A DNA stretch of 64,000 nucleotides. It comes from Candidatus Nitrosopumilus sp. (GTDB taxonomy: Archaea; Thermoproteota; Nitrososphaeria; Nitrososphaerales; Nitrosopumilaceae). Positions 49,779 through 63,157 of this stretch are shown in pieces. A program made the translations under genes and the position numbers. The number at the start of each line of letters is the position of its first letter. The stretch's first letter is position 1. The notes beneath the pieces were generated by a model. That model searched no databases. It was given only the letters and a program-made list of their open reading frames with translations, and was not told the origin of the DNA. The stretch lies in the NCBI GenBank assembly GCA_013215285.1, contig JABSRD010000001.1, positions 692,815-756,814 of the forward strand, given 5' to 3'.

Positions 49779-49853
49779 GGACTCGTTGCATAGCTTGGAT
49801 AGTGCGATTGCTTGCGGAGCAATAGGTCACCGGTTCGAATCCTGTCGGGTCCG
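49779..49853 (+). tRNA. tRNA-Arg(GCG)
   Basis: Acceptor GGACTCG/CGGGTCC (one T-G), D arm GCAT/GTGC, anticodon arm ATTGC-TTGCGGA-GCAAT, T arm ACCGG-TTCGAAT-CCTGT with one C-T mismatch. Confidence 0.88.
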
Positions 49854-49890
49854 CTACCCATCATGGTACTAAAATAGTTCCACTTTCATG
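49844..49890 (+). repeat. attL-like direct repeat
   Basis: GTCGGGTCCGC...ATGGTACTAAAATAGTTCCACTTTCATG, imperfect match to 62436-62483. Confidence 0.75.
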
Positions 49891-51093
49891 CCATCATGCG
49901 TGGAGTTAACAATAGAAAACATACAGGAAATAGAAGATCCCTACAATGCGTTTGTAAACTCTGTTAGAAATACTGAAACCCTTCGTAAATATAAAAATCA
50001 GTTACATGTATTTCTAAAATTGATTCCAGGCAAAATTTATGAAGATGTTTTGGGGAAAACACCTGAAAATGACACTCTTGAACACCTGTCTACAATGTTT
50101 GTGGAATTAGCTGACAAGGACTCAAAGACTGTGTATAATATTATTGCAACATACATCAAAGAAGACAGAAAAAAAGTTGAACAGAAATTACTGCGACCAA
50201 ACTCCTTTTCAAATCACATAAAGTCAATTAGAAAACTACTTGATGCAAACGCCATTGCAATATCTTGGAAGTCATTACACCAACTATATCCTAGAGGTTC
50301 TGTAAGCAAGGATAGGGCATACACAAGAGATGAACTTCAAAAGATGATAAACACATCACCTGATCTTGTTGACAAAGTAATTGTTGCGTTATTTTCATCA
50401 GCTGGGTTTCGTTTAGAGTCATGGGATTATTTTATCTGGAAGGATGTAATATTTTTCAAAAATGATGATGATACTTTCAAGGGAGGTGCATTACTAGTTT
50501 ATCATGGAGATCCTGAAAGTTATTGGACACACATTACACCTGAAGCATGTAACTTGTTACAAGAGTACAGAGAGTTGTGGAAATCTCAAATTGGTGTGTA
50601 TCCAAATCCTAAAGATCCACTTCTTAAAACAACAAAGACGCCTGTTGTAAGACGACTCAAAGGTTTTGGCGTAAAAAGAAGAGTTGACAGACTAGCAAGA
50701 AGAATTGGAATGAGAAATGGATTGGTAGATGGTCAAAGCAGATATGATGTTCCATTAGACCATGGCTTTAGAAAATACTTTAACACAATGCTAAGACGTG
50801 CAAAGGTTGACTATCTGGATAAGGAGGATATGATGGGACACACAACAGGACTTGAAAAACACTATGAAAGATACAACGAGGAGGACTTTGAACGGTTTTC
50901 AGAATATGAAAAGGCAATTCCATTCCGCACCATCTCTGATACCGAACGAGTAAAACTTGAGAATGTAAATCTGAGAAGAGAAAAAACAGAGCTGCAAAAG
51001 ACACAGGAAAAGTTAGAACATGCTTTAGTTAAGATAGATGAACTTTGGGCAGACAAACAAAGGATGGAGAATTCTACGTATACCTATGACTAA
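49888..51093 (+). CDS. Tyrosine recombinase/integrase
   Basis: SAM-like N-terminal region, ALFSSAGFRLESWDYF (catalytic Arg region), LDHGFRKYFNTMLRRAKVDYLDKEDMMGHTTGLEKHYERY (H-x-x-R...H...Y). Confidence 0.88.
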   Translation: MPSCVELTIENIQEIEDPYNAFVNSVRNTETLRKYKNQLHVFLKLIPGKIYEDVLGKTPENDTLEHLSTMFVELADKDSKTVYNIIATYIKEDRKKVEQKLLRPNSFSNHIKSIRKLLDANAIAISWKSLHQLYPRGSVSKDRAYTRDELQKMINTSPDLVDKVIVALFSSAGFRLESWDYFIWKDVIFFKNDDDTFKGGALLVYHGDPESYWTHITPEACNLLQEYRELWKSQIGVYPNPKDPLLKTTKTPVVRRLKGFGVKRRVDRLARRIGMRNGLVDGQSRYDVPLDHGFRKYFNTMLRRAKVDYLDKEDMMGHTTGLEKHYERYNEEDFERFSEYEKAIPFRTISDTERVKLENVNLRREKTELQKTQEKLEHALVKIDELWADKQRMENSTYTYD

Positions 51094-51119
51094 CTTTCAA
51101 TTCTTGATGATTTCGGTTT

Positions 51120-51461
51120 TTATTTGCAGAATTTGATTCCGAAATCTCGTTGTTTTGAATAATTCCTCTTTAATTTCTCTTTTTCCTTCTTTGATACCAT
51201 GTCGTTGCAGTTTACAGATTTTATGGCAAATTTTTTTGCCTTTTCTTTATCCCCTTTATATTGCCAATATCCTGATTGACTGCGATAGTAACTCTCTTTG
51301 TATAATCTCTCATAGGAATAAAATATCTTGTCGACAAATTCCTCAATCGCTTTGTCATCAAGTGATTTAAAAAAATGTTCTGAAGGATAAAATGCATGTT
51401 CTATTTGTCTTGTATAAAATTCATTCAAAAATGTTATGGGATAAGAAGTGAAATAATTCAT
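51120..51461 (-). CDS. Hypothetical protein
   Basis: 113-aa ORF, overlaps next plus-strand ORF at 51396-51461. Confidence 0.4.
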   Translation of the reverse strand: MNYFTSYPITFLNEFYTRQIEHAFYPSEHFFKSLDDKAIEEFVDKIFYSYERLYKESYYRSQSGYWQYKGDKEKAKKFAIKSVNCNDMVSKKEKEKLKRNYSKQRDFGIKFCK

Positions 51462-51662
51462 GGGAAAAAAAGAAAAACAAAAATTTTAGAAAATGAACGA
51501 AAACTTTCTGATGAAGAAATTAAAGAAAAACTTGAAGAGTATGTTCGAAAAGGAATATCAAAAATTCTTAGATTACATATGATGTATGAATCTCAAGAAA
51601 ATGTACTAGCACAAATAGACAATTATACTTTGAATAGAGGGGAAAATTTGTATGACGACTAA
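51396..51662 (+). pseudogene. HEPN-like (Apea-type) C-terminal fragment
   Basis: YGIRSEIIHGKKRK resembles the HEPN R-x4-6-H motif, followed by LEEYVRKGISKILRLHM. Confidence 0.45.
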
Positions 51663-52985
51663 TTTAACTTTCTATGGTTGTGTAAATGAAATTAGAGGAA
51701 ACAAAATTTTACTCCAAGACAAAGATACAAAAATTTTCTTAGATTTTGGTAAAGGATTTACAGGATTAGGAAATTATTTTGAGCAATTCCTGGCACCTCG
51801 TGCATCAAATGGAATTTTAGATTTTATTACCATGGGATTAGTACCTGATATTTCTGGAATTTATCGAGATGACTTGATGTTTAGAGCAGGACGTGAAATC
51901 AAAGAACCTGACGTTGACGCAGTATTGATTTTTCATGCACATGCAATCATACATCATTTTCACATGGAGATATTCCACTTTACATGGGTCAGACCACCCA
52001 AAACATGATCAAAGCAATTCAAGAACGTTCTAGCGGTACAATTGATAGAGAAATTTTAGAATACAAACTAACTGGTGCAAAAAGAGGGGATCCTAAAATT
52101 GCAAGAACAATTAACACGTTTCGTACTGGAGAGAAATTCAATATTGGTTCATTAGAAATTGAACCAATACATGTGGATCATTCTATTCCAGAATCTTATG
52201 GTTTTATTATTTACACTTCTGAGGGCTCCATAGTATACACTGGTGACTTGAGACATCATGGTTCCAAACCACAAATGACTGAAGAATTTATTGCAAAAGC
52301 CAAAGATGTAAAACCAATTGCACTAATTGCTGAAGGTACTCGCATCAAAGATGAATCAACTAATGAAAGTGAATAAATAGTATATTCCCAATCTGACAAA
52401 CTAACTGCAGATACCAACAACTTGATTTTTGCTGATTTTAATTTCAAAGATGTAGATAGAGTGCAAACATTTTACAACATTGCAAAGAAAAATGGCAGAA
52501 AATTTGTAATCAAAATCAAAGATGCATATTTTTTAAAACATCTTTCATCTGATCCAAATTTGAATTTACCAAATTGTGATGATGAACATATTATAATTTA
52601 CAAAGCAAAGTATCGTACAGGTACTTATTCTGATTCAGATTATGTTGGAGAAGACCGAACATTTGCAACTGCACCTAATGCGTTAACTACTGCTGAAATT
52701 GCAGCAAAACCTGACAAGTATATTTGTGCTATAGGATTTTTCAGCTTTAATGCATTGATTGATATGAAACCAAAATCAGGTGTCATTTACATTCATTCAT
52801 CCAATGAAGCTTACAATGAAGAACAAGTTTTAAGTACAAAAAGACTGAATAATTGGATTGAAAAGTTTCAAATGGAACATCATCAAATTCATTGTTCAGA
52901 CCATGCAAACGGAGGGGACTTGATGGATCTGATAAAAGAAATTGATGCTAAAACTAGAAGTAAAAAGAATAGATATCAAAAATAA
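51652..52985 (+). pseudogene. MBL-fold / beta-CASP (RNase J-like) gene, interrupted
   Basis: Collinear ORFs 51652-52008, 51984-52376 and 52422-52985. Frame change near 51945 inside HAHA(D)H; later two ORFs share a frame and are separated by TAA at 52374-52376. Confidence 0.8.
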
Positions 52986-52987
52986 GA

Positions 52988-53160
52988 TGAGCGAGGCTAT
53001 GAAAAAGAGATTCATTGAATGGGCTGAAGAAAATTCCGATAAGGCAAATGTATTACAAATTGCAAAAACAGGTTTAGGAAAGATGGACATGGATGCAACA
53101 GTTGATCATTTTCTTGAGCATAAAGATGCAGATCTTGAAAAATATTTGAAGAGTTTTTCT
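52988..53160 (+). pseudogene. Small helical protein, apparently truncated
   Basis: MSEAMKKRFIEWAEENSDKANVLQIAKTGLGKMDMDATVDHFLEHKDADLEKYLKSF, then runs into sequence antisense to an integrase fragment. Confidence 0.45.
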
Positions 53161-53471
53161 GAATTCACTATTTTCTTGATCTCAATCATGTATGATTTTA
53201 TCATGGTCTTAATTATACCCGTATCATTTTTTGCCAAGTTCACAAACGGTATGCAAAGATCTTCTAATTCTTGCGATTTTGGAGTTTCAATGTTATGTTC
53301 TACATAGACTTGTTTTGGAACTAACATCAAAAATATCTTAAGATCTCTTGTATAGTTACGTCTGGTTTGATAACTTTGTATTGATTCTATAAAATTAACA
53401 TATGCGTTTTCCTTCAAATCCGTTAATCCTATCTTCATGGTACTATTTGGTATTGTGTCTATTTGAGTCAC
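53106..53471 (-). pseudogene. Truncated tyrosine integrase (N-terminal part only)
   Basis: AYVNFIESIQSYQTRRNYTRDLKIFLMLVPKQVYVE parallels AFVNSVRNTETLRKYKNQLHVFLKLIPGKIYED of the 49888-51093 integrase; catalytic domain absent. Confidence 0.75.
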
Positions 53472-53611
53472 TAAAATGAGATGCTCCCAGTTGAAAAGAT
53501 CCTGAGATCTCAGTGTAAATCCTTAGAAAATTCATATTTATAGCTCCGATAACCTGACAGAACCTTTGATCGTAATTCTTTAATCATATTAGATATCTTA
53601 TTATTATATAT

Positions 53612-54682
53612 ATGATAAAAATAGGGATGATTTTTGCAAGTATATTATTTGCAGTTATCTTAATTGCGAGTTTTACTATGTCTTCATATGCTGATTATTA
53701 TATCCCACCAAAAAAGCAGTTAGAATCAGGTATATTGCCTGAAGATGTTCTGTGTAGAGATGGAAAAGTATTAGTCATTAGAGATAACGGCAATCCTGCT
53801 TGTGTGCGGGAGTTAACAGCTGTTAAAATGAACTGGAATATTATTATCATTGCAACAGAGACTGTTGCACAAATGATAATTCCATCATCACATCAAGAAG
53901 AAGAAGTTTTGATAAATGACAAAGAAGAAAATGTTTTGATAGAACATGAATCTACTGAAAATGATGAGATAATAAATAATGATTTGATAGAACACAAAAC
54001 AAAACAACCAACTCAATACATAGAGATGAACTTAGGTTCTGATGTGGAATATGTAGATGATGGCAGGGAAATTCATTATGGACTTCAAAGATCACCTGCA
54101 CCTGAAAATATCTATGAACTTATCATAGATAACCAAGAGGATAATGATATAGATCCTTATGGTATGATGAGGGTGCCTGCAGGGTTTGGACATGAAAAAT
54201 ATTCCATAGTTTCAGGAATTGGATTATACCCAGCAGATTGGATGCCAATTTTTATTCCTGATGGATATAAGTTGTTATTTTTTGAGAATTTCAATTATGA
54301 AGATACAACAGGTGATGCAGTTCTAAGAATAAACTTTGTACCAAACACGTTCCAGTTAACTAATCAAACTACTACTCATGATATAAAACGTAGTGAAGGA
54401 TATATGGTGCGTGTATCATATCAATCTTTACCTTTTGATGAGATTGAAGACAGAATTGAAGCAGATAAAGAAGATGAACAGTCAAAGCCAGGTTATGTTG
54501 GTAGATGGTTAGATATTGCACGGGATGGTAAAACAGTTTATGCATCAGAAACACAGACTTTTTATGATGACTATCGTTCAATTTACAGTTTTAGTCCAAA
54601 TGATAATTTAATAGTAGGTGTGTTATCATACCATCATACATTAGAAGAGTTAAAACCAATTTTTGATAGTGTAATGAATTGA
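53612..54682 (+). CDS. Exported/surface hypothetical protein
   Basis: N-terminal hydrophobic segment and PPKKQLESGILPEDVLCRDGKVLVIRDNGNPACVREL motif. Confidence 0.65.
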   Translation: MIKIGMIFASILFAVILIASFTMSSYADYYIPPKKQLESGILPEDVLCRDGKVLVIRDNGNPACVRELTAVKMNWNIIIIATETVAQMIIPSSHQEEEVLINDKEENVLIEHESTENDEIINNDLIEHKTKQPTQYIEMNLGSDVEYVDDGREIHYGLQRSPAPENIYELIIDNQEDNDIDPYGMMRVPAGFGHEKYSIVSGIGLYPADWMPIFIPDGYKLLFFENFNYEDTTGDAVLRINFVPNTFQLTNQTTTHDIKRSEGYMVRVSYQSLPFDEIEDRIEADKEDEQSKPGYVGRWLDIARDGKTVYASETQTFYDDYRSIYSFSPNDNLIVGVLSYHHTLEELKPIFDSVMN

Positions 54683-57600
54683 AAAATGTTTTAATTATTT
54701 TTACACTTACAGTGATTGGTGTTTTTAGTTATTCTCAAGATACTTCTGCACAACTAGTATGTGATGACCCGCATTGTTATGCCTTAGAAATTCACAGACA
54801 AAATTTCGTTGACGGTCTAAAATATGATTTAGCAGCACCTGATTTATGGATTGATAGAAATGCGTGTAATGACATTGCAGTATCTACAGGTTGGTTAATT
54901 TCTACTAGTAATTCAGAATGGGTAGAGGCGGGAATTACAAAAGGTAGTTTAAGAAATCTTGATGGAACTATTACATGTGTTACTCAACTTAGTACGTATT
55001 ATGCGTATAATTTCCTAAAATCTGATGGTAAGTATTCATACATTGAATTTTTAGTCCCAAACGGTAGAGTAGATACTAGAGATGATGTTAATGTCAAAAT
55101 TCAACAAAACGATCAGAATCAGATTAGAGTTCATGTAAACACGCCAGATAGACTAGACGAATTTGCATCAGCTAGAATTACACTACAACCTAACAATAAT
55201 TATTATGCAGACTTTGGAATTGAGGGAACTGTATCTGCACCAACCGAATATTCATCAATTCCAATGAGTAAGTATACAAATACAAAAATTTTACGTAATG
55301 ATATATGGATTGATTTACCTAATACTACCACATTATCAATCCCAACAGCAGGTCAAGGATACAAGGCTATGAAATGCCCAAACAATTCATTCATTGCAGG
55401 GACAGTTACTGCACTTGATTGTAATAATGTGGCTACAAGAAACCAAGTTCCAATATTTGGCAATATAGTAAGGACCATTACAACAAATACACCAATCACA
55501 ATTCCTTTGATGGCAACAGATACAGACAAAGATTATCTTACATACAAACTGGTATCATCATCAACTCATGGTACAACAGATCATACCAATAGAGCATCAC
55601 CAATATCAACTACAAATGGTGAAACTTCACAAATAGTATATACGCCTACAAGCAATACTCCTGAATCTGATACGTTTAGAGTAAGTGTAACTGACAAAAG
55701 AGTTGGCCATACAAAAGAATCACTAGTATCCATTACAGGACCAACATCAGGACCAACAATATCTGATGCAATTGATGATTTGTCACATGTAATAAGTGGA
55801 AATACAATAACACTTTCATGGTCACATCCATTTAATGGCGGTTCTGAAATCACATCATATAGAATAGAAAGATCTGTTGATACAAACACTTGGAGTCTTG
55901 TAAATACAATATCAGAAACTCTTACCAGTTATGATATAACATCCAGTCCTGGATCTATCCAATATTACAGAATACTTGTAAACAATGCAAATGGTCCATC
56001 TGCATCATCCAATATCGTACAACCATACATTATAGATAATACACCGCCTGTAATCACAATTAGTACGCCTACAACTAACCAAATAATCACCAGTCAAAAC
56101 ATTCCTGTTACATCAAACATATTTGAATATGACAACTCTGGTATTGAAAATGTGCAAATGTTAATTGATCATGTTATTATCACAAATCCAATATCTGTTT
56201 TGCATGTAGGGGGTATCAGTATAACTGCAACATCTGAAATCACTGGAGTTGATAATGGCCAGCATACTTTAACAGTTAGGGCAACAAACGGGGACGGATA
56301 CATTGCAAATCAATCAGTCAGTTTTACAAAAAATACGCCAACATCTCAAAACTTGTCATCATTTGAGGATAACTTTGATGAGAATAACATATCTTCTAAC
56401 TGGCATACAACAACTGAAGATGACGAGTATTGGGATATACGAACCCCAATTATTCCAGTACCTGATTCTACACTAGGTAATGAGGTTGCAGGAGTAGAAG
56501 ACTGTGATGATAAATGTGAACTAATCATGATACATACAGTAGACATATCTACCATGGCAGAACCGAAACTTAACTTTTACAGATACCTATCATCATCACT
56601 AGATAACGGTGAGGGATTAGATGTTGATATCTCAACTGATGGCGGTGTAACGTTTATCACACTTGACAGTTTCACTGCCGATGAATCCGAAGATGATGGT
56701 ATATGGCATTTTGAAGAGTATAGTCTTGCTAACTACACCTCAACACAATTCAAATTAAAATTCATTGCAACATCAAGTTCAAACAGCGAGGATATAGAAA
56801 TTGACAATCTAAGAATTTATGATGCATACATACCTACAGATACAACAATATCTCTAATAATCGAATCAATTAATGATATTACAATAAGTGAGGGGCAAAC
56901 TCATATCGTAACAGTATCTGCAACAACAACAGACCAATCCCCAATAACATATTCTTTAACACAAAAACCGTCATTTGTCACAATTACAAATAACACTATA
57001 ACAATATCGCCTGATTATTACAACGCAGGAAATTATACCATCACAGCTCAAGCTATATCTAAAAATCAAACCTCAACTGTACCATTTGATGTTACAGTGT
57101 ATGATTCACAACCTACAGGGTATCTTTCTGCAACAGTCGATAATTATTCCAGCATACTTGAGGTAGTTGAGGGTGAACCATTTATTGTAAAATTCCAATA
57201 TTCAGAGAACCTGTCAAAAACAGGATGGGTATGTTTTGAGATGATTGATTCAGATGGAAACAAAGTAAAGAAAAATGCTGACATCAAACTATGGAATGAT
57301 CCTAGCCAATATTCCTTTGATGGTGTAAGCTGGGGTGGTGATTCATACAACGATAAGGTGTTTTATGGAACCTGCAAGTACATTACAGGGGATCAGTTAT
57401 GGTTGAGCATACCAACCTTTGTAGACTATGATGAAACAGAAAGCGATGAGGTATACTATCTAAAAATACGAGAAGACCGAAACAACCCACAATTTGAGCC
57501 GAAATTAATACCACTAACCATAAAAGAATCAGGACGTGGGCATCCAGTAATTACAGTTGATGTTGACTCTAGCACCCTGGTAGTTACTGAGGGTGAATCA

Positions 57601-57957
57601 TTTGTAGTATCATTTCAGTATGATTACACTTTATCCAAAACTGAATGGGCAAGCTTTGATGTAATTGATTCAGATGGAAACAAAGTACGAGATAACGAGA
57701 ATATTAAACTATGGAATGACCCAAACTTGTTCTCCTATGATAACGGAATAAAATGGGGTGGGCCAGGATACTATGACAAAGTGTATTATGGCTCTTACAA
57801 GTATATCCTGGGTGATTCTATATCAGTTAAGATCCCCACTAAAATAAATGATGATGTTACACAAGGCGATAAAACATACAAGCTAAAGGTAACAGTAAGA
57901 AACAACGAGGCAACAATCATATTCCCTCAAGTTGACCTTACAATACAAGATCGATGA
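54679..57957 (+). CDS. Large modular surface protein (FnIII/Ig-like modules, two C-terminal tandem repeats)
   Basis: Signal-like N-terminus; FnIII-like HVISGNTITLSWSHPFNGGSEITSYRIERS; repeated VxEGExFxVxFQY...SDGNKV...KLWNDP...WGG...Y.DKVxYG. Confidence 0.75.
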   Translation: MKNVLIIFTLTVIGVFSYSQDTSAQLVCDDPHCYALEIHRQNFVDGLKYDLAAPDLWIDRNACNDIAVSTGWLISTSNSEWVEAGITKGSLRNLDGTITCVTQLSTYYAYNFLKSDGKYSYIEFLVPNGRVDTRDDVNVKIQQNDQNQIRVHVNTPDRLDEFASARITLQPNNNYYADFGIEGTVSAPTEYSSIPMSKYTNTKILRNDIWIDLPNTTTLSIPTAGQGYKAMKCPNNSFIAGTVTALDCNNVATRNQVPIFGNIVRTITTNTPITIPLMATDTDKDYLTYKLVSSSTHGTTDHTNRASPISTTNGETSQIVYTPTSNTPESDTFRVSVTDKRVGHTKESLVSITGPTSGPTISDAIDDLSHVISGNTITLSWSHPFNGGSEITSYRIERSVDTNTWSLVNTISETLTSYDITSSPGSIQYYRILVNNANGPSASSNIVQPYIIDNTPPVITISTPTTNQIITSQNIPVTSNIFEYDNSGIENVQMLIDHVIITNPISVLHVGGISITATSEITGVDNGQHTLTVRATNGDGYIANQSVSFTKNTPTSQNLSSFEDNFDENNISSNWHTTTEDDEYWDIRTPIIPVPDSTLGNEVAGVEDCDDKCELIMIHTVDISTMAEPKLNFYRYLSSSLDNGEGLDVDISTDGGVTFITLDSFTADESEDDGIWHFEEYSLANYTSTQFKLKFIATSSSNSEDIEIDNLRIYDAYIPTDTTISLIIESINDITISEGQTHIVTVSATTTDQSPITYSLTQKPSFVTITNNTITISPDYYNAGNYTITAQAISKNQTSTVPFDVTVYDSQPTGYLSATVDNYSSILEVVEGEPFIVKFQYSENLSKTGWVCFEMIDSDGNKVKKNADIKLWNDPSQYSFDGVSWGGDSYNDKVFYGTCKYITGDQLWLSIPTFVDYDETESDEVYYLKIREDRNNPQFEPKLIPLTIKESGRGHPVITVDVDSSTLVVTEGESFVVSFQYDYTLSKTEWASFDVIDSDGNKVRDNENIKLWNDPNLFSYDNGIKWGGPGYYDKVYYGSYKYILGDSISVKIPTKINDDVTQGDKTYKLKVTVRNNEATIIFPQVDLTIQDR

Positions 57958-58355
57958 TGATGATTTAGGTGCAAAATAAAATAACAGGCATTGTCAATCT
58001 AGCGAGTCCTGATTTCAGAATTATGACTTTGCTCATTTGATAGTTTTAGAGAAGAACCAAGACAGGATATAAACCGAGATGAAAAATGTTATTTGAGACT
58101 TGTGATTAAATTCTGCCACTCGAAAGTAGACACGAAGAAATACCAAATGTAGATTACAGAACCCTAAATTATATAATTCAATAATCAAATCACTCCATTG
58201 AGCAAAGTAAACTCTATGCCAACATTATTGATAATGACGATGAACTATACAATGACTGGGAACTAGATGATTATCATTTATTTACAAACTGGAATACCGC
58301 AGAACACAACAATTGGCAACTACCTGCAACAAAAGAACCTCATTGGTGGTGTGGA

Positions 58356-59150
58356 ATGTGGAATACAAAGGGATGTCTTCACACAAAAGATCATACTACA
58401 CATAATAAACAAGTTTACGTACTAAGATACCAGCGTTCATGCTTTCGTTCCTCTTGTAATCTTTGTTGGGAGAAATGGATTGGACGTGCATCAAATGTTG
58501 CAACAAGAAAGATTATAAAATATTTCAAAATAGAAAACAAAAAACCAATACATGTTGTACTGTCTGTATCTAATTGGGACTATGAGTTAGACTACAAAAA
58601 AATGAAGCTAAAGGCAAGAAAGATTTTACGAGAAATCAAGGTTGTAGGTGGAAGCATGATGTTTCACCCATTTCGCTTCAACAAGAGACTAAGATGCTGG
58701 TACTACTCTCCACACTTTCACATTGTTTGTTTTGGGTTTCTTCCCAAAGGTTCTCTTGTAGAGATATATCGCCAAAACGGTTGGTTTGTAAAGTATTTGG
58801 GCGTACGAAAATCAGTCTTTGCCACCTTTTACTATATTCTGTCTCACTGCGGAATTAAACACAGAACACGTACAGTATCCTGGTTTGGAGACTTGTCATA
58901 TAGCAAACTGGAATCAGAAACCCTACCTGAAAATAACAATTGTCCGCTCTGTGGACGGAAATTAGTGGAGATTTACTATAATGGGTGGGATCCTCCAGTT
59001 CCACCTGATGGATTCTTTGAGGGATTTGTGGATTCGTATGGATGGCATGCAGTGGAAACTAGTAACATTCCTTTAGAGCCTTGTAACTTTGAGTATGCCC
59101 CAACTAGAGAACTAAATGATCTGTTGAAAAGCTTAGAACAAGCACATTGA
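58356..59150 (+). CDS. HUH-type (rolling-circle) replication initiator-like protein
   Basis: SCFRSSCNLCWEKW zinc-finger-like, YYSPHFHIVCFGFLPKG (HUH motif), VFATFYYILSHCGI (Tyr motif), C-terminal CPLCGRKL. Open frame extends upstream without a canonical start. Confidence 0.65.
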   Translation: MWNTKGCLHTKDHTTHNKQVYVLRYQRSCFRSSCNLCWEKWIGRASNVATRKIIKYFKIENKKPIHVVLSVSNWDYELDYKKMKLKARKILREIKVVGGSMMFHPFRFNKRLRCWYYSPHFHIVCFGFLPKGSLVEIYRQNGWFVKYLGVRKSVFATFYYILSHCGIKHRTRTVSWFGDLSYSKLESETLPENNNCPLCGRKLVEIYYNGWDPPVPPDGFFEGFVDSYGWHAVETSNIPLEPCNFEYAPTRELNDLLKSLEQAH

Positions 59151-59252
59151 TTTATTGGAACTGTTTTAGATACACTTTGGTGGTTGGAACGATAGAATAG
59201 AATCCTCTGAGAAATTCAATAACTCTATAAACAATCCCTCAATATCCAAAAT

Positions 59253-59419
59253 ATGGCAAAAGACGAAATCGGCGGACGTCTATAGATATTACAAAAGTGG
59301 ATGGTAAAATCAAAATTGTTTTCCATCCTATGGCAAAAAATGCACAACATCCAGATGCTGCAGTTTTCTCTGTAACTCTATCAAAATCGGACCTAGACAA
59401 GCTCAAAAAAGCCTTTTGA
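59253..59419 (+). pseudogene. Small ORF interrupted by a frameshift
   Basis: MAKDEIGGR then stop near 59281; continues in another frame as DITKVDGKIKIVFHPMAKNAQHPDAAVFSVTLSKSDLDKLKKAF. Confidence 0.5.
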
Positions 59420-59488
59420 TTGCATACTACCCAAAGAACAATTATAAACTTCCATCCATTTTAAATAGACTTCCAAATTAGTCATGCT

Positions 59489-60591
59489 GTGTCTCGAGCA
59501 CGAATTGACGAGCAATTTGTAGGAAGCGAAACATATGGATTTGATGCAATTAGAGGCGTTCAGGCAGGTCGTGAATTCTATGTGGCAATGTGTCCGCTCA
59601 AAATTATTCCAAAATTATTCATCTTTGATGATTATGACATACCTCCAGAATTACGTGCTCAGAGAGTATTACGAGAATCAAGAATTCCTGCAATTAAAAA
59701 TTACATTCTGAATAATCCCAATGATTACACATTTTCATCATTAACTGCATCTGTTGATGGGGTTATGAGGTTCACTCCTGCAGCATCCTTGGGAGAAGAG
59801 GGTAAACTAGGACGTCTTTACATTAACATGGATTCTAGACTTTTGATAAACGATGGACAACACAGAAGAAAAGCAATTGAAGAAGCACTAAAAGAAAGAC
59901 CAGATTTAGGTCATGAAATGATTTCAGTTGTTTTTTTCCAAGATGATGGTTTGAAGCGTAGCCAGCAAATGTTCTCTGATCTAAACAAAAATGCAGTAAA
60001 GCCTACAAAATCACTTAACATTTTGTATGATCATCGTGATGAATTTTCAAAATTCATTGTAAGTTTAGTTAATTCAATTGAAATTTTTGATGGAAGAGTA
60101 GAGTTGGAAAAAACTTCAATCTCTAATCGTTCAACTAAAGCATTTACTCTAAATGGAATTGCAGATGCATCATTACGATTAATTGGATTACGTAAAGGAC
60201 GAAAACCATCTGTAGAAGAAAAAAACTAATTAGAGAGTTTTGGGAAATTGTATCAAAAAATATTGCTGAATGGCAGTTACTAATTCAAGGTAAAGTGTCC
60301 TCTTATGAACTTCGGCAAAACTTTGTTCATACATATACCAATTTACTAAATGCACTTGGGATTGCCGGATATGTTATAATTCAAGACAATCCAGATTCTT
60401 GGAAAGACATTCTCAAGAATCTCAAAAAAATTGATTGGTCTAAAACATCCCCTAATTGGAAAGGGCGATTAATCATTAATGAACAGATGCAAAAACATGC
60501 TGCAGGAATTGAGCTAGCTGCCAACATAATTTTGAAAAAATGTGGAATTACACTCTCTGAAGACAGACAAAAAATAGAGGATAAACTTTGA
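59489..60591 (+). pseudogene. dndB: DndB-like DGQHR-domain protein with a frameshift
   Basis: LLINDGQHRRKAIEEAL, FSDLNKNAVKPTKSLNILYDHRD; ORF stops at 60229 after an A7 run and continues in another frame (REFWEIVSKNIAEWQLLIQGKVSSYELRQNFVHTY...) to 60591. Confidence 0.75.
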
Positions 60592-60779
60592 ACAAGTCTA
60601 TTTTTGATCAAAGAAAATTAAGTGATATTTACGAAGAAATTAGAACTGTTTATCTTAATGATAACCGTCCCTGGATATTGGGATTTAGTGGAGGAAAAGA
60701 CTCCACTTGTCTTGCACAACTAGTATGGCATGCATTATCAGAGTTACCAGTAGAGAAATTACAGAAAAAAACAATTTAA
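60588..60779 (+). pseudogene. dndC: DndC-like PP-loop protein, truncated after ~60 aa
   Basis: SIFDQRKLSDIYEEIRTVYLNDNRPWILGFSGGKDSTCLAQLVWHAL, then rapid stop. Confidence 0.72.
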
Positions 60780-60955
60780 TTTCTGTGAATCCAAAAATAG
60801 AAGAGCATCACTCCATGGTAAGATTTACTAGTCTTGATAAAAATATTATACAACCATTAGAAGAATGGGGATTCATTGATGTACAAAAAATTGGACGAAA
60901 TAGATTAATCACAATTACTCAAGAAGGAAAAAATGCTTCTGAATTTTTAATTTGA
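60707..60955 (+). pseudogene. Winged-helix-like C-terminal fragment joined to the DndC remnant
   Basis: MVRFTSLDKNIIQPLEEWGFIDVQKIGRNRLITITQEGKNASEFLI. Confidence 0.35.
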
Positions 60956-61033
60956 CTAATTTCTAAAATACCTGGAAGGGGAGGTTATTGTATTATCAAG
61001 ATCTGTTAAATTCTAGTACGAATTAGCAATTAT

Positions 61034-61201
61034 ATGAATACAAATTCACTACCTTTGATTGCATTGGTAATTGAGGGATTGGCTTTCATTTGGCAAAAAG
61101 GGGTACAAAAACATCCAATGAATTGTACTTGTGATACATGTGTTACAATAGAGGTCTCCATTCCTGTCACGTTAGCGATTACTATGTCAACTCGAAAATA
61201 G
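61034..61201 (+). CDS. 55-aa hypothetical with CTCDTC motif
   Basis: MNTNSLPLIALVIEGLAFIWQKGVQKHPMNCTCDTCVTIEVSIPVTLAITMSTRK, read directly. Confidence 0.35.
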   Translation: MNTNSLPLIALVIEGLAFIWQKGVQKHPMNCTCDTCVTIEVSIPVTLAITMSTRK

Positions 61202-61399
61202 AAAAAATAACTCTGAAATTTGGTTTTGCGGTTCTAAAAAATAGATCCTATTCAATGATAATCTAGTTCAATCACGTGATAAGAGCAATTTAAAATATTT
61301 CTGAGTCAGTTTGGCTTAGGATAGTACCTTGGACTTAAGAGATCATGATTTTAGTATTCATAATCAAAGATTATTACTATAAAAATTTGAGATAAAAAT

Positions 61400-62317
61400 A
61401 TGACAATACCTCCAACAAAATTGATTAAATTACCAATACTAGAATTATTAGCAGACAAGAAAAAACATACACTTAGTGAGACAGTAGAATTTATTGCAAA
61501 AAAATTCAATGTGTCTGAAGAAGATAGAAAGCAATTAATTCCTAGTAGATTGCAACAAACCCTTAAAGTTCGAATTACTTGGGCAGTATCTGAATTACGT
61601 AATGCACTTCTTCTTGAAAACATAGAAAACAAAAGAGGTATTTTCAAAATCACCCAACGTGGATTAGAAGTATTAAAAGAAAATCCTAAAATAATAGACA
61701 CCAAATTTCTTAAAAAATTTTCAGAGTATAGACATTTTTTAGGAATAGATGAAGAAGGAAAGAGTACACAAAAATCTAAAATTATTGAATCAGATGAATC
61801 CCCAATTGAAATCATTGAAGAAAGTTATCAAAAAATTAAACGAGAGTTGATTCAAAATATTTTGACATTAGTTAGAAAATGCTCGCCTGATTCATTTGAA
61901 CGATTAGTGATACAATTAGTTGTTAAAATGGGCTATGGGGGCACTGTTGAAGATGCAGGGAAGGCAATTGGTAAACAGGGTGATGAAGGAATAGATGGAA
62001 TAATAAAAGAAGATGAATTAGGTTTTGAAAAGATCTATGTTCAAGCTAAAAGATGGAATTCTAGTGTGGGTAGACCAAAATTACAAGAATTTGTAGGTGC
62101 ATTACATGGTCAGAAAGCAAAAAAAGGTCTTTTTATCACCAGTGGGGATTTTACAAATGAAGCATTAAGATACAAAGACAAGATAGATGATAAAATTATA
62201 ATTTTGATTGATGGAAATGAATTGGCAGAATATATGATAAGATACAATTTAGGAGTTTTCACCACCAGTGTTTTGGAAATGAAACAAATTGACTCGGACT
62301 TTTTTGAAGAAATTTAA
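61400..62317 (+). CDS. mrr: Mrr-family restriction endonuclease
   Basis: Mrr_N-like PPTKLIKLPILELLADKKKHTLSE; catalytic GYGGTVEDAGKAIGKQGDEGIDGIIKEDELGFEKIYVQAKRW. Confidence 0.88.
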   Translation: MTIPPTKLIKLPILELLADKKKHTLSETVEFIAKKFNVSEEDRKQLIPSRLQQTLKVRITWAVSELRNALLLENIENKRGIFKITQRGLEVLKENPKIIDTKFLKKFSEYRHFLGIDEEGKSTQKSKIIESDESPIEIIEESYQKIKRELIQNILTLVRKCSPDSFERLVIQLVVKMGYGGTVEDAGKAIGKQGDEGIDGIIKEDELGFEKIYVQAKRWNSSVGRPKLQEFVGALHGQKAKKGLFITSGDFTNEALRYKDKIDDKIIILIDGNELAEYMIRYNLGVFTTSVLEMKQIDSDFFEEI

Positions 62318-62435
62318 ATGAAATAATAAAAAAGATGTTGATTTTTAGCATCTGCGTCCAAAATTATACCCCCATGATGGGGGCTGAATCCCATGAAGTG
62401 GAACTTTTTTTGTGACAAGTTAGTACCCTAGTCCG

Positions 62436-62483
62436 GTCGGGTCCGCATACCCTTATGGTCCTAAAATAGTTCCACTTTCATGA
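62436..62483 (+). repeat. attR-like direct repeat including tRNA-Arg 3'-end fragment
   Basis: GTCGGGTCCGCATACCCTTATGGTCCTAAAATAGTTCCACTTTCATG. Confidence 0.75.
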
Positions 62484-62587: not shown

Positions 62588-63157
62588 ATGAAGTTAAAAG
62601 TACTCTCAAATGATTCTGACACCAATAAAATTGGAGAATTCCCTTGTACTTCATGTCACACAAATTGTTGTAAAGAATATGTGATATTTGTTAACGCTCA
62701 TGACATTTACCGACTCTCAGATGGATTGGGGTTTAACCCCGAGAATTTTCTTGAGATTTATGGTGCAAAGGATTTCGATCTCGGAATAAATGTACAAGAA
62801 GGTTTGCTAGATCTAGCTTTAAAACAAAAAGATGGTGGATGTATGTTTCTTGAAGAATCCAAAGATGTCTTTAGATGTACTGTAAATGACTTTAAACCTG
62901 GTGTGTGTAAATCATATCCATTTCAAATGAGAAATGGAAAATTAATCCAGATGGACTCTAAGTTGTGTCCTGTTGAATGGAATGCTGAAGAATTTGAGAA
63001 TATGATGTCAATACATCTCAAAAAAGATGAATGTGAATGGAAATTCTATGATGAACTTGTACTAGAATGGAATACAAAGAATCAGACAAAAAAACCACTA
63101 TCTGCATTTTTGAAATTCATATTAGATAGAGTATCTTTAGAATTTACAAAATCTTGA
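62588..63157 (+). CDS. YkgJ-family cysteine-cluster protein
   Basis: FPCTSCHTNCCKEYV, GCMFLEESKDVFRCTVNDFKPGVCKSYPFQM. Confidence 0.85.
   Translation: MKLKVLSNDSDTNKIGEFPCTSCHTNCCKEYVIFVNAHDIYRLSDGLGFNPENFLEIYGAKDFDLGINVQEGLLDLALKQKDGGCMFLEESKDVFRCTVNDFKPGVCKSYPFQMRNGKLIQMDSKLCPVEWNAEEFENMMSIHLKKDECEWKFYDELVLEWNTKNQTKKPLSAFLKFILDRVSLEFTKS

Follow-up and report, generated by a model that had tools for sequence, protein, structure and literature searches.

The 64,000-nt stretch of DNA analysed here (the window) contains an element of about 12.6 kb at the 3′ end of a tRNA-Arg(GCG) gene whose T stem has one mismatch. The explanation that we consider probable combines an ordinary tRNA-targeted tyrosine-recombinase element, an older related remnant, and a G63-to-T substitution private to the host. 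Its own tyrosine recombinase would have joined the element to the only tRNA-Arg(GCG) gene, by recombination at the 3′ end of that gene, and integration would have left a 15-nt core at each end, beside the remnant of the older related element. Both partners most likely read CCGGT at integration, and U63 would have arisen later or independently, as a substitution restricted to the tRNA of the host lineage and not borne by the element. Had the element really rewritten the host tRNA, integration would be shown to cause tRNA mutations; what the evidence favours is the ordinary case and not tRNA rewriting.

The tRNA-Arg(GCG) gene (49779..49853, + strand) was the only tRNA found in the window by ARAGORN, which placed it at 49779-49854. 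It is present once in the genome as listed, and the Rfam scan listed no second GCG copy in its own genome. The T arm reads ACCGG-TTCGAAT-CCTGT, with C51 (49831) opposite U63 (T63 in the gene, 49843), and the T-stem mismatch noticed in an earlier sequence-only reading is real. The family was surveyed with a pattern that left bases 63-65 free; among 75 tRNA-Arg(GCG) copies from 74 genomes of eight genera, positions 51 and 63 were unpaired in one copy, that of this genome. For 47 distinct copies read directly from fetched loci, the T stem was fully paired (G·U counted) in 46, and T63 was found in one. Base 63 was the sole difference from the window copy, over the region read, in the tRNA-Arg(GCG) genes of G051, G067, and G019. 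As the tRNA-Arg genes of relatives read CCGGT, T63 is derived and private. A clade-wide variant was ruled out, as T63 was seen once among the 75 family copies. An exact scan of other genomes, possibly omitting records of the own genome, found no CCTGT in this tRNA context from the host's group; its matches were 37 stretches from bacteria and one from Bathyarchaeota.

A direct repeat of 51 nt (86% identical) was found 12,592 bases downstream, at 62432-62482. A 15-nt core stands at both borders (49840 and 62432) and differs by one base, which is the direct repeat expected of a tRNA-targeted element. The attL copy lies within the tRNA (49840..49854, + strand, TCCTGTCGGGTCCGC), and the attR core is the displaced tRNA-Arg 3′ fragment with which the 51-nt repeat starts (62432..62446, + strand, TCCGGTCGGGTCCGC), with G63 at 62435. 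The presence of a 3′ fragment reading CCGGT about 12.6 kb away, as had been noted earlier, was therefore confirmed. A chance repeat was ruled out by the repeat length and by the E-value of the 15-nt core (8e-5 within a 15-kb stretch).

The left end of the element (49855..49887, + strand) carries the arm ATGGTACTAAAATAGTTCCACTTTCATG, and the same sequence is found at an intact tRNA in G069. The right end (62394..62431, + strand, GTGGAACTTTTTTTGTGACAAGTTAGTACCCTAG) has about 20 related copies in six genomes. The dyad symmetry of the arms, considered as a guide to the crossover, gave two different centres: T70 for the inner repeats, and a point between 64 and 65 for the outer ones. Just inside the right end sits a module of 40–60 nt (TGCGTCC...TGAATCCCAT, 62345..62390, + strand). 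Related elements in tRNA-Val genes have a homologous module as their right end, and G035 (L215) contains two copies of it with 4 kb between them. The identity of the 51-nt repeat extends 36 bases beyond the tRNA part, into the arm of the left end (TAAAATAGTTCCACTTTCATG), and therefore the right flank of the fragment (62447..62482, + strand) represents the remains of a left end that belonged to another related element; it is 96% identical over 28 nt to 49863-49890, and no integrase follows it. The earlier reading needs one correction here, in that the sequence after the fragment is not a simple empty-site flank. The next host gene (62588..63157, + strand) encodes a CxxCxxCC protein. In G077, a tRNA with a paired T stem lies 1.3 kb upstream of the same gene with no such element between them, and this tRNA and its flank differ from those of the window.

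Directly after the left end comes an intact gene for a tyrosine recombinase (integrase) of 401 amino acids (49888..51093, + strand; PHROG integrase, E 2e-6). R175, H292, R295, H318, and Y326/Y329 were invariant in eight aligned relatives, so the R-H-R-H-Y set is present. Pfam Phage_integrase was detected in seven of the eight members of the integrase set, with the window protein alone falling below the Pfam cut-off. Related integrases at L106 (G006) and L110 (G016) lie beside an inverted tRNA 3′ core and hence at the attR side. The integrase gene is followed by a metallo-beta-lactamase-like gene broken into three ORFs (51652..52985, + strand), an N-terminal remnant of a second integrase on the − strand (53106..53471) that matches the integrase at G000:C1:745953-746225, and two cargo ORFs (53612..57957, + strand) encoding a 356-aa protein with no family match and a 1092-aa protein with a bacterial Ig domain (Big_9). 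Further downstream, a 264-aa protein (58356..59150, + strand) contains an HFH motif, which hints at a candidate rolling-circle Rep; PDB and plasmid matches were sought for it and none were found. A DndB-family gene is split into two ORFs (59489-60229 and 60295-60591, + strand), with the break adjoining a run of seven A, and an Mrr-type type IV restriction endonuclease (61400..62317, + strand; Mrr_cat and Mrr_N; PADLOC mREase_IV, E 5e-70) lies near the right end. As an intact integrase, a remnant of a second integrase, and broken genes coexist, the element is probably composite and partly decayed. Its GC content was 33.6% vs 32.0% for the host part of the window. No free form of the element was found in the IMG/VR, plasmid, or phage collections searched, and ARAGORN found no replacement tRNA inside it.

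The sequence-only reading had proposed that the element brought in an imperfect copy of the tRNA 3′ end (T63 in attP), which replaced the host end, and that the fragment at 62432 is the original host sequence. As base 63 lies within the shared core, it could in principle come from either parent, and an element-borne T, like a host substitution, needs one mutation only. This proposal agrees with T63 being derived and the relatives having G63. Imperfect element-borne ends are also described, together with tRNA-dependent lysogeny, in actinobacteriophages; the attP core of Mycobacterium phage Boilgate differs from attB by five bases (PMC10865867). However, the related ends speak against it and make it improbable. 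The left end in G069 (L116), which shares 63 of 65 bases with the window (97%), including the core, adjoins a tRNA with an intact CCGGT, and G63 also stands at the left ends of the related elements of G015, G073, and G075. The related right ends (about 20 copies in six genomes) likewise have G63, except for one with A63 (L204). Judged from these copies, G63 is thus what the element family has at its left and right ends alike. Moreover, an element-borne T would require the strands to be exchanged within TCC, the only three bases shared to the left of the mismatch. The fragments in G073 (L198) and G008 (L182) read CCGAT (A64), which leaves A64 unpaired with the GCCGG of their own host tRNAs; such fragments are thus not simply displaced host ends, and the idea that attR preserves the original host end is not supported by this comparison. 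What is supported of the proposal is the tRNA-targeted element, with its intact integrase and core repeat; the supply of T63 by the element is not. A fuller version, in which the imperfect tRNA end of an archaeal element would have taken the place of the 3′ end in an essential tRNA of the host and left a tolerated lesion at 51-63 of the T stem, is a little more improbable still.

A sequencing or assembly error at 49843, with G as the true base, would also explain why a conserved gene has a single private base, and the two broken element genes, including the DndB gene beside seven A, could reflect indel errors. Against this, elements that decay often contain broken genes, and substitution errors are rarer than indel errors in long-read data. 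The upstream host ORFs are long and 88% of that part is coding, so the assembly is not generally poor. We therefore regard an error as unlikely, though it deserves more weight than an element-borne T, and retain the private substitution in the host tRNA as the best explanation.

Many of the related right-end copies, G63 copies included, are found away from tRNA-Arg; the sequence after them is ATGTG, GATTC, or GACTC and not a tRNA acceptor, while TCCGGTCG or a close variant is kept. The retention of G63 at right ends may reflect random targets that share the octamer and were selected by overlap homology; for this reason, the exact crossover, like the order of events, is something that we infer. 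A search for a clean empty site for the right ends outside tRNA genes found none. Relatives were found for two of their flanks, of which the one in G044 had the same right end in decayed form and the one in G057 had a different upstream arm and the same TCCGGTCGATGTGG. In the same integrase clade, four further attL/attR pairs, located at tRNA-Val and tRNA-Met, show agreement in the part of the tRNA that was compared. Unless the crossover is mapped, displaced fragments cannot serve as a record of the original host sequence. Two side observations were made on these ends. The identity between the G069 left end and 49840-49904 drops to 68% over 250 bases where the integrase gene starts. Several copies of the right-end motif ...AGACAAGTTASTACCCTASTCCGGTCG are present per genome, in places about 1–5 kb apart and often followed by ATGTGR (L214 in G073:C45, L220 in G070:C50, L218, L222, and L227), and they may represent either arrayed element ends or a family of repeats.

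Judging from its composition and relatives, the host is probably an ammonia-oxidising archaeon. In Thaumarchaeota, the group to which it would then belong, integrated elements are found at tRNA 3′ ends and have short att sites (median of 17 bp in the survey of Krupovic et al. 2019, PMC6563490). The element described here shares with them the tRNA 3′ integration, the short att repeats (15 nt here), the tyrosine recombinase, and the reuse of one site by several elements; it differs in that the tRNA at attL has a mismatch without a counterpart in the displaced fragment. Across the genus, many distinct elements make use of this tRNA-Arg gene. The tRNA-dependent lysogeny of Mycobacterium and Gordonia phages resembles the present case in the integration into a tRNA gene and the imperfect match between copies, but there the phage supplies a replacement tRNA and the host tRNA is not rebuilt, whereas here it is rebuilt save for one base and the element has no tRNA (PMC10865867). 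Archaeal plasmids of the pT26-2 type also integrate at tRNA 3′ ends, but their att sites are longer and the integrase gene is split in many of them, whereas here it is intact and at one end; up to three att mismatches in these plasmids were ascribed to decay after integration (PMC6972569). For a few archaeal integrases, the crossover has been placed, by mapping or by inference, at tRNA loops (PMC8371274).

The mismatched tRNA-Arg(GCG) scored 51.2 bits with the Rfam tRNA model (cut-off of 29), vs 54.1–56.2 bits in G035, G070, G073, and G091. The predicted folding energy of its unmodified cloverleaf was −19.7 kcal/mol vs −25.9 kcal/mol for the natural G051 sequence, and the cloverleaf was no longer the predicted minimum-energy fold; these energies ignore modified bases and tertiary contacts. 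The mismatch, if real, would weaken the T stem. Pair 51-63 tunes elongation-factor binding in bacteria (EF-Tu). Of the 424 arginine codons counted in the host part of the window, 14% were CGT or CGC, the codons read by tRNA-Arg(GCG). Despite the mismatch, the tRNA can probably still be used, and the codons that it reads are rare.

T-stem mismatches were also found in four further tRNAs of the same genome (G000), i.e., tRNA-His (A52·C62, L169), tRNA-Phe (C52·C62, L176), tRNA-Asp (T52·C62, L274), and tRNA-Ser(GCT) (T50·T64, L269). The A52·C62 mismatch was present at 27 of the 30 tRNA-His loci read, and the C52·C62 form of tRNA-Phe was found again in about 40 genomes. An unpaired T-stem base is thus not strange in itself here, the mismatches of tRNA-His and tRNA-Phe being widespread in the genus. 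Editing or plain tolerance may be the cause of the mismatches in these four tRNAs. In addition, tRNA-Arg(TCG) is present as two identical copies in the genome (L266 and L267), each with an A3·C70 mismatch in the acceptor stem.
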